Assembly (NCBI RefSeq): GCF_039541115.1
Contig: NZ_BAABFP010000002.1
Span: 620,001 to 684,000, forward strand
Reading direction: 5' to 3'
DNA: 64,000 nt
Source of the DNA: Angustibacter luteus
GTDB lineage: Bacteria; Actinomycetota; Actinomycetes; Actinomycetales; Angustibacteraceae
This document shows, piece after piece, positions 23,318 through 28,769 of the stretch. Every line of letters starts with the position of its first letter. The stretch's first letter is position 1. The position numbers were made by a program, and so were the translations under genes. The notes beneath the pieces are model-generated. The model was given only the letters and a program-made list of their open reading frames with translations. It made no database searches and was not told the DNA's origin.

Positions 23318-23336
23318 GGTCACGAACCTCCCAGTA

Positions 23337-23354
23337 GACGGCTAGGGTCTGCGC
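23337..23354. promoter_or_regulatory. Bidirectional promoter core between rmlB and rmlA
   Basis: On the plus strand TAGGGT (23343-23348) ends six bases before the rmlA ATG (leaderless). The overlapping reverse hexamer GACCCT (23349-23344) would start rmlB transcription near 23337, leaving a leader of about 14-20 bases that contains GGGAGG. Confidence 0.5.
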
Positions 23355-24227
23355 ATGCGCGGGATCATCTTGGCAGGCGGTTCGGGGACTCGACTGCACC
23401 CTGTGACGATCGGCGTCAGCAAGCAGCTCGTCCCGGTCTACGACAAGCCGATGATCTACTACCCGCTGTCGATGCTGATCATGGCCGGGATCCGCGACGT
23501 CCTGGTGATCACCACCCCGCACGACGCGGCCCAGTTCGAGCGGCTCCTGGGTGACGGGTCGCAGTTCGGCATCAGCATCACGTTCGCCCAGCAGCCCAGC
23601 CCGGACGGCCTGGCCCAGGCGTTCATCATCGGCCGTGAGTTCGTCGGCACCGACACGGTGGCCCTCGTGCTGGGCGACAACATCTTCTACGGGCCGGGCC
23701 TGGGCACCCAGCTGCGCAAGAACGTCGACCTGGAGGGCGGCCTGGTGTACGCCTACCAGGTCGGCGACCCACAGGCGTACGGCGTCGTGGAGTTCGACTC
23801 CGCCGGGCGCGCGATCTCGTTGGAGGAGAAGCCGGCCGAGCCGCGCAGCGACTACGCCGTGCCGGGGCTGTACTTCTACGACAACGACGTGCTCGACATC
23901 GCCGCTGCCCTCGAGCCGTCGCCCCGCGGCGAGCTCGAGATCACCGACGTGAACCGCGTCTACCTCGAGCAGGGCCGGCTGGCCGTCGAGGTGCTGCCCC
24001 GCGGCACGGCGTGGCTCGACACCGGCACCTTCGAGTCCCTGATGAGCGCCAGCGAGTTCGTCCGGGTCATCGAGAGCCGCCAGGGCCTGAAGATCGGCTG
24101 CCCGGAGGAAGTGGCCTGGCGCAGTGGCTTCCTGGACGACGACCAGCTGCGCGCCGCCGGCGAGGCGCTCGCGAAGTCGGGCTACGGCTCGTACCTGCTC
24201 GGCCTGTTGCGCAACGGCAAGGACTGA
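23355..24227 (+). CDS. rmlA: Glucose-1-phosphate thymidylyltransferase
   Basis: 290 residues, the usual length. It makes dTDP-glucose from dTTP and glucose 1-phosphate, the first step of the rhamnose pathway. Signature motifs are [13 protein letters not shown], the sugar-binding [13 protein letters not shown], the metal site [17 protein letters not shown], and the C-terminal [11 protein letters not shown]. It is leaderless according to the -10 box six bases before the ATG. It converges on rmlD with a 31-bp gap. All four rml genes are present here, so the strain can make its own dTDP-L-rhamnose. Confidence 0.97.
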
Positions 24228-24258: not shown

Positions 24259-25122
24259 TCAGGCCAGCACGGTCGGCGCGGCGGCCGCGAACCGCTCGCG
24301 CCAGTCGCCGATCGGTTCGACGCCGGCGCGGACCAGCGCGCCGTGGCCCAGCACGGAGAAGGCCGGCCGCGGTGCCGGGCGGACGAAGGCCGCGGACGTG
24401 GTCGGGCGCACCCGCTGCGGGTCGGCACCCGCCGCCCGGGCGACCTCCTGGGCGAACTCGTGCCAGGAGCCGCGACCGGACGACGTGGCGTGGTAGGTGC
24501 CGGCCGGGGCCTCGTGGGTCAGCAGGTCGACGACGACGCGCGCGACGTCCACCGTCCACGTGGGCTGCCCGACCTGGTCGGCGACGACGTCCAGGGTGTC
24601 CCGCTGGGTGAGCGCCCCCGCGATCGTCTTCGGGAAGCAGCGCCCGGCGGCGCCGTACAGCCAGGCGGTCCGGACCACCAGGACGTCCGCGTGCTCGGCC
24701 CGGGCGGCCCACTCCCCGGCCCCCTTGGTCCGCCCGTAGGCCGAGCGCGGCGCCATCGGCGCGTCCTCGGCGTAGGGCTCGCTCGCCGTCCCGTCGAACA
24801 CGTAGTCGGTCGAGACCTGCACGAGCCGGGCGCCACTGCGGCGGCAGGCGATGCCCAGGTGCGCCGCGCCGAGCGCGTTCACCGCGAAGGCCGGACCCTC
24901 CTGGGTCTCGGCGTCGTCCACGGCCGTCCAGGCCGCGCAGTTCACCACCACGTCGTGGCCCGCGACCTGCTCGACGCACGCAGCGGCGTCCGTCACGTCG
25001 AGCTCGCGACTGCCGACCGAGGTCACCGTCCGACCGCTCGCGGTGAGAGCGGCGACCACGTCCGTCCCGAGCATCCCCGCGGCCCCGACGACGAGCCAGC
25101 GGTCCGTTGCACCATCAGCCAT
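24259..25122 (-). CDS. rmlD: dTDP-4-dehydrorhamnose reductase
   Basis: 287 residues. It performs the last, NAD(P)H-dependent step of dTDP-L-rhamnose synthesis. Motifs are VVGAAGMLGTDV (nucleotide binding), NCAAWTAVDDAE, VSTDYVFDG, and YGRTKGAGE with the catalytic Tyr-x3-Lys. The ATG at 25122 lies 18 bp from the divergent rmlC ATG, and both appear leaderless from a shared element. Its 3' end faces rmlA. Confidence 0.95.
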   Translation of the reverse strand: MADGATDRWLVVGAAGMLGTDVVAALTASGRTVTSVGSRELDVTDAAACVEQVAGHDVVVNCAAWTAVDDAETQEGPAFAVNALGAAHLGIACRRSGARLVQVSTDYVFDGTASEPYAEDAPMAPRSAYGRTKGAGEWAARAEHADVLVVRTAWLYGAAGRCFPKTIAGALTQRDTLDVVADQVGQPTWTVDVARVVVDLLTHEAPAGTYHATSSGRGSWHEFAQEVARAAGADPQRVRPTTSAAFVRPAPRPAFSVLGHGALVRAGVEPIGDWRERFAAAAPTVLA

Positions 25123-25139
25123 CCGGCTAGTGTCGCAGC
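25123..25139. promoter_or_regulatory. Shared bidirectional leaderless promoter of rmlD and rmlC
   Basis: The entire 17-bp gap. Plus strand: TAGTGT (25128-25133), six bases, ATG of rmlC. Minus strand: GACACT (25134-25129), six bases, ATG of rmlD. The two hexamers overlap by five bases and put the two +1 positions on the start codons, 18 bp apart. Confidence 0.6.
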
Positions 25140-25757
25140 ATGCAGATCACGCCGCTGACCATCGAGGGCGCCTGGAAGATCGTGCCGCGCCAGCACTCCG
25201 ACGACCGCGGGGTCTTCCTCGAGTGGTTCGCCGAGGCGGCGTTCGCCGAGGCGACCGGGCAGCGCTTGAACCTCGCCCAGGCCAACATCTCGACGTCCTC
25301 GGCGGGCGTCGTGCGCGGGATCCACTTCGCGCAGCTCCCGCCCAGCCAGGCCAAGTACGTCACCTGCCCGTCCGGGGCGGTGCTCGACGTCGTCGTGGAC
25401 ATCCGGGTCGGGTCACCGACCTTCGGGCAGTACGAGACGGTCGTGCTGGACGACGTCGAGCGGGCCGCGCTGTACCTGAGCGAGGGCCTGGGACACGGGT
25501 ACATGGCCCTGCGGGACGGCTCCGTGTTCGCCTACCTGTGCTCCGCGCCCTACGCACCCGGCCGCGAGCACGGCGTGAGCCCGATGTGCCCCGAGCTGGC
25601 GATCGAGTGGCCGACCACGGCCCCGGACGGCACCGCGCTAACCCCGCTCATGTCCCCGAAGGACCTGGCGGCGCCCACGCTGTCGCAGGCCCGGGAGCAG
25701 GGGCTGCTGCCGACCTACGCGCAGGTGCAGGACTTCCGCGCCACGCTGCGCAGATGA
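25140..25757 (+). CDS. rmlC: dTDP-4-dehydrorhamnose 3,5-epimerase
   Basis: 205-residue cupin-fold epimerase, third step of the rhamnose pathway. It has DDRGVFLEWF, the catalytic His in VVRGIHFAQLP, the barrel strand LDVVVDIRVGSPTFGQ, GLGHGYMAL and the conserved Tyr region AYLCSAPY. The C-terminus is normal in length. Transcription is probably leaderless. The stop codon overlaps the next start as ATGA, so the TIGR03089 gene is co-translated with it. Confidence 0.95.
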   Translation: MQITPLTIEGAWKIVPRQHSDDRGVFLEWFAEAAFAEATGQRLNLAQANISTSSAGVVRGIHFAQLPPSQAKYVTCPSGAVLDVVVDIRVGSPTFGQYETVVLDDVERAALYLSEGLGHGYMALRDGSVFAYLCSAPYAPGREHGVSPMCPELAIEWPTTAPDGTALTPLMSPKDLAAPTLSQAREQGLLPTYAQVQDFRATLRR

Positions 25758-28641: not shown

Positions 28642-28769
28642 TGTGACGCGTGGGGCATGTGTGAGTGTGCCGGTTCGGCGACGAACCGTCTACGTGTTCA
28701 CCCGATCAGCCGAAGAGTTCGAAATACCAGCCCGCAGCAACTCAACGCCGCTGCCGGGCCCGCCGAATG

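Follow-up and report, generated by a model that had tools for sequence, protein, structure and literature searches.

How are two divergent genes of one pathway transcribed when only 17 bp separate their start codons? The question is raised by the window, the stretch of 64,000 nucleotides from Angustibacter luteus that was analysed here, in which rmlD and rmlC adjoin rmlA and rmlB and are read away from each other, rmlD from a start codon on the minus strand (CAT, 25120-25122) and rmlC from one on the plus strand (ATG, 25140). For comparison, this genome is termed G000, a second species of the genus G001, a member of another genus of the same family G002, and a member of a third genus G003. The elements of the junction are the following:

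24259..25122, minus strand: rmlD, dTDP-4-dehydrorhamnose reductase, 287 aa, ATG at 25122 (TIGR01214, 1.6e-81; PF04321, 3.5e-87)
25140..25757, plus strand: rmlC, dTDP-4-dehydrorhamnose 3,5-epimerase, 205 aa, ATG at 25140 (PF00908, 4.1e-55)
25123..25139, no strand: intergenic gap CCGGCTAGTGTCGCAGC, 17 bp, all the non-coding DNA between rmlD and rmlC; 25120-25142 reads CAT CCGGCTAGTGTCGCAGC ATG
25128..25133, plus strand: candidate -10 hexamer TAGTGT for rmlC, followed by CGCAGC (6 nt) and the ATG
25129..25134, minus strand, read from 25134 to 25129: candidate -10 hexamer GACACT for rmlD, followed by AGCCGG (6 nt) and the ATG
25135..25137, minus strand: candidate extended -10 TGC, before the rmlD hexamer, its TGn kept in G001 and G002
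25140, plus strand: predicted +1 of the rmlC transcript from the geometry, the A of the ATG, which pairs with the -18T of the rmlD promoter
25122, minus strand: predicted +1 of the rmlD transcript from the geometry, the A of the ATG, which pairs with the -18T of the rmlC promoter

RmlC also matches TIGR01221 (5.7e-42) with 143.5 bits, slightly under the curated cut-off of 155.75, and its N-terminus, MQITPL, is the same in G001, G002 and G003. Each of the two ATGs is the furthest upstream start in its open reading frame, that of rmlD being the sole possible in-frame start, and reading of both frames revealed no plausible in-frame start downstream of either; thus, the 17-bp gap does not depend on the choice of start codon. 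Direct reading found no Shine-Dalgarno sequence (SD) before rmlD or rmlC. At the other end of rmlC, the start of the following gene overlaps the rmlC stop codon (ATGA, 25754-25757), and the plus-strand transcript probably spans two genes or more.

Within the gap, the two hexamers overlap over the five bases 25129-25133, and the A's of the two ATGs lie 18 bp apart. The base pairs 25129 and 25133 correspond to -11A and -7T when read towards rmlC and to -7T and -11A when read towards rmlD, and direct reading finds a T at -18 both ways, on the plus strand at 25122 and on the minus strand at 25140. With a start-to-start distance of 18 bp, the A and the T on the second strand follow from the first -10, so that the two hexamers do not represent independent coincidences. 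The preliminary description had read this geometry exactly, including the 17-bp gap, the placement of TAGTGT and GACACT six bases from their ATGs, the five-base overlap and the 18 bp between the A's. The element that it called symmetric is only pseudo-symmetric, the plus hexamer being a full TANNNT and GACACT lacking the first T (-12T).

In our reading, the 17-bp gap is very probably a minimal bidirectional promoter of the 18-bp type, with both predicted start sites on start codons. The geometry, the absence of alternatives, the match to the leaderless promoters of the genome and the conservation are taken from the sequence, whereas the start sites, the sigma factor and the mutual exclusion of the two directions are what we infer. 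As the start codons would pin both +1 positions, the resulting predictions are exact and testable.

Leaderless promoters and conservation of the junction

Do the two hexamers stand where promoters of this genome usually stand? Contig stretches and the window, together 864 kb with 728 genes, were surveyed with a codon-usage gene caller whose start choice is blind to upstream sequence; it chooses starts imperfectly and missed one true divergent pair (C2:352258). The number of genes with a TANNNT before the start codon is 41 at -12, 26 at -13 and eight at -14, and about one at every other offset (background 1.2 per 728 genes, or about one in 600 start-proximal positions per register). An SD is absent in 71 of these 75 genes, among which no -35 preference is visible. 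The sharp peak at -12/-13 indicates that leaderless promoters in the register of rmlC are normal in this genome, and the low background per register argues against chance for the plus hexamer. Hexamers with a first base other than T are also used, as GANNNT occurs at -12 in 21 cases against 6.3 expected in the 864 kb; an extended -10 TGn accompanies six of these 21 hexamers versus one of the 41 TANNNT hexamers at -12, with a background of 5%. Both genes of the junction are in the leaderless register, rmlC with TAGTGT at -12 and rmlD with GACACT at -12, an ANNNT with TGn, its TGC-GACACT being of the TGn-GANNNT type.

The junction is conserved in two of the relatives. In G001, where RmlC is 79% and RmlD 76% identical, it reads CAT-GCGGATAGTGTCGCAGCC-ATG, and in G002 (70% and 72%) CAC-GCTCGCTAGTGTTCCAGC-ATG. 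The gaps in G000, G001 and G002 are 17, 18 and 18 bp; TAGTGT is identical in all three at six of six positions, with spacers of 6 or 7 nt on both sides. Also kept in G001 and G002 are the -11A/-7T base pairs shared by the two directions and the TGn ahead of the minus hexamer (TGC in G001, TGG in G002). At fourfold degenerate sites of rmlD and rmlC, only one of ten A/T bases of G000 survives in G001 and one of eight in G002, while about 57% of the G/C bases do. That a hexamer with four A/T bases stays unchanged while neutral A/T sites are nearly all lost argues for selection on TAGTGT. In G003, the compact junction is lost: about 2.7 kb including a PIN-domain gene separate rmlD and rmlC, and rmlC has a leaderless TAGGGT of its own. 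The PIN-domain (VapC-like) gene there lies directly upstream of rmlD (L127 1115-1519). In other families, rmlD and rmlC are often still divergent, with gaps mostly of 50-130 bp and frequently an SD before rmlC, and the compact form is confined to G000, G001 and G002.

Could TAGTGT nevertheless serve rmlC only? The promoter of rmlD would then lie inside rmlC, the 5' UTR made from it would be antisense to that gene, and symmetry would have produced GACACT as a by-product, a second hexamer that comes free once the gap is 17 bp. The lack of a -12T in GACACT fits such an arrangement, as do the larger gaps and SD-led rmlC genes of the other families. However, neither rmlD nor rmlC has a further TANNNT on its own strand within 300 bp upstream, rmlD has no SD, a plain sigma-70 scan found no two-box promoter of that type near the junction, and there is no terminator nearby; no -35 is recognisable. 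Moreover, the TGn before the minus hexamer is kept in all three genomes, the spacing of 6-7 nt to the rmlD start is constant though the N-terminal codons differ, and other gene pairs keep the same layout (see below). We therefore consider service of rmlC only unlikely. Under the preferred reading of one core for both genes, the service of rmlD could still be weak, given that the minus hexamer lacks the -12T and that symmetry makes a second-strand hexamer cheap.

The same layout at other gene pairs

The whole genome was searched for CAY and RTG codons that flank a gap of 17 or 18 bp and have a TANNNT in register; of the 28 sites returned, five are convincing divergent gene pairs. Besides rmlD/rmlC these are, with gene names assigned by reading the sequences:

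G000 C7:562410-562432 (L231), divergent: MFS transporter / aminotransferase, gap 17, core TAGTGTCG, spacing the same in G001
G000 C2:352258-352281 (L233), divergent: PhoD-like / zinc-type dehydrogenase, gap 18, core TAGGGTCG
G000 C2:1088703-1088726 (L245), divergent: menC/menB (menaquinone), gap 18, TATCCTCG with one TATCCT core, kept in G001
divergent: solute-binding protein (SBP) / S9 peptidase, gap 18

Gap and core are kept in G001 at rmlD/rmlC and at the three other pairs checked (MFS/aminotransferase, PhoD-like/dehydrogenase and menC/menB). The PhoD-like/dehydrogenase gap measures 18, 18 and 17 bp in three genomes, with ATG-17-ATG in G002, and the minus-strand -10 is extended by TGC in all three. 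The core before menB is common to menB and either menC or menD, at 19 bp, in two genomes of a different family. The layout is thus recurrent but rare, and not unique to rml. Two further candidates were set aside: purK/gtrA-like from the 864 kb, which has separate -10s for its two genes in relatives and an uncertain gtrA start in this genome, and the doubtful TfoX/methyltransferase pair (L244), whose TfoX-like protein probably starts downstream. Divergent membrane-protein genes at G000 C2:614948-614976 (DUF95-like and RDD-like by eye) carry two back-to-back leaderless -10s (ACCCTA-TGGCC-TAGCCT), and their junction is an uncollapsed version of the shared-core idea.

A related arrangement is found beside the junction itself, between rmlB (minus strand) and rmlA (plus strand), which are divergent with a gap of 31 bp (window 23321-23357):

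23343..23349, no strand: core TAGGGTC between rmlB and rmlA, also in G001

Here, TAGGGT is followed by six bases and the ATG of rmlA at 23355, so that rmlA is leaderless by sequence, while the short leader of rmlB contains the SD GGGAGG, and the overlapping GACCCT possibly serves rmlB. The core resembles that of rmlD/rmlC (GGCTAGGGTC versus GGCTAGTGTC), and the pair may be a half-leaderless form of the same design, with weaker sharing than at rmlD/rmlC. In many other actinobacteria, too, rmlA is apparently leaderless. Elsewhere in the window, the longest open reading frames of a peptidoglycan-binding-repeat protein (minus strand) and a SpoIID/FG-GAP protein (plus strand) start on overlapping bases (28657-28658), both starts being putative.

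Might the genes merely abut by chance, the hexamers being, for one direction at least, without any function beyond that of ordinary AT-rich promoter remnants? Divergent pairs in the 864-kb sample show no excess of gaps of 16-19 bp over neighbouring sizes, so there is no general pull towards this spacing. Of the fully symmetric CAT...ATG sites in 149 genomes of the order, 22 were readable, and most of these mark the leaderless start of one gene, with one doubtful site that has two open reading frames; a count of symmetric CAT-N5-TANNNTA-N5-ATG sites in these genomes against a swapped-base control was discarded, since codon patterns raise the control and the numbers are not comparable. Both results would suit a coincidence, but against it stand the retention of the core amid the loss of neutral A/T sites, an exact register in both directions and the same conserved layout at four pairs, and we hold mere abutment to be highly improbable. 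It is hardly credible that the gap doubles as an operator for a dedicated rhamnose-synthesis regulator and owes its conservation to protein binding, not to a promoter core: the short conserved pseudo-palindrome CTAGTGTCG could bind a regulator, but the core recurs at the unrelated MFS/aminotransferase and PhoD-like/dehydrogenase pairs, and what these sites share is the -10 consensus placed in the leaderless register.

The preliminary description had proposed one shared -10 for two leaderless transcripts and an alignment of the gap across relatives as a check. This alignment, with TAGTGT unchanged and gaps of 17, 18 and 18 bp wherever the compact junction is present, agrees with the proposal, as does a leaderless register that is the norm of the genome; the element itself lacks full symmetry and its layout occurs beyond rml.

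Proposed mechanism and comparison with known systems

In the mechanism that we propose for the shared core, the primary sigma factor would read one -10 either way, as TAGTGT towards rmlC and as TGC-GACACT, an extended -10, towards rmlD, with the two most important base pairs, 25129 and 25133, used by both directions. Melting in one orientation would lead to a start on the A of the rmlC ATG, and in the other to a start on the A of the rmlD ATG, 18 bp away. Both mRNAs would be leaderless, with ribosomes binding the 5'-terminal AUG. RNA polymerase would occupy one orientation at a time, and the RmlC:RmlD ratio would be set by the strength of each direction, a full TANNNT versus TGn-GANNNT. That the unit fixes this ratio, as had been suggested at the outset, is unsupported: in the bidirectional promoters tested in Escherichia coli, basal activity is too low for competition between the directions (PMC12825309), and a fixed ratio thus does not follow.

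Beyond this locus, it seems reasonably probable that leaderless-rich Actinobacteria have a recurrent, selected class of promoters with one -10 and two start codons. In such a class, divergent genes would lie 17-19 bp apart with one shared core as their whole regulatory DNA, both transcription and translation starts and the mutual exclusion of RNA polymerase would be contained within 23 bp, the genes would sometimes belong to the same pathway (rmlD/rmlC, menC/menB), and the promoters would be recognisable from sequence alone. If the starts are confirmed, the junction would be close to the smallest possible control unit for two genes, with 17 bp, no leaders and no separate promoters. It would also offer a natural setting for the choice of orientation by RNA polymerase, and for a possible competition that couples two enzymes of the same pathway. 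A mutated start codon of either gene would then also change the -18 contact of the promoter facing the other way.

How does this compare with known systems? In the 18-bp bidirectional promoters described by Warman, Grainger and colleagues, one pseudo-symmetric -10 is used in two orientations, with divergent +1s 18 bp apart, reciprocally paired -7T and -11A, and a T at -18 opposite each +1A (PMC10268837, PMC12825309). The preliminary description had given the 18-bp rule for divergent starts in agreement with this published geometry, and the rmlD/rmlC core, with its predicted +1 positions, shows all the sequence features tested; unlike in those promoters, no -35 can be recognised here, and both predicted +1s fall on start codons, which would yield two leaderless mRNAs for enzymes of one pathway. 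Actinobacterial leaderless genes, in turn, carry a TANNNT some 12 bp upstream of the start codon (PMC3160421, PMC3898074, PMC4633059, PMC6448022). The junction resembles them in the register of its TANNNT/ANNNT, the absence of an SD, ATG or GTG at the predicted +1 and the lack of a clear -35, but the published cases have one gene per promoter, whereas here one -10 would serve two. The nearest mapped case is the divergent pair Rv1129c/prpD of Mycobacterium tuberculosis, both leaderless, with mapped starts at 1254510 and 1254630 (PMC3898074); these are 120 bp apart and imply two separate promoters, unlike at rmlD/rmlC. The same divergent pair occurs in Nocardioides and related genomes (L037, L050), where both rmlD and rmlC are apparently leaderless and the junctions have two back-to-back -10s, not one shared core. 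In the literature searched, of which coverage is incomplete, we found no earlier account of a single -10 common to two leaderless genes. Judged by its sequence, the rmlD/rmlC junction would thus join two kinds of promoter that are each already known, its new part being the combination of an 18-bp bidirectional promoter with two leaderless genes.
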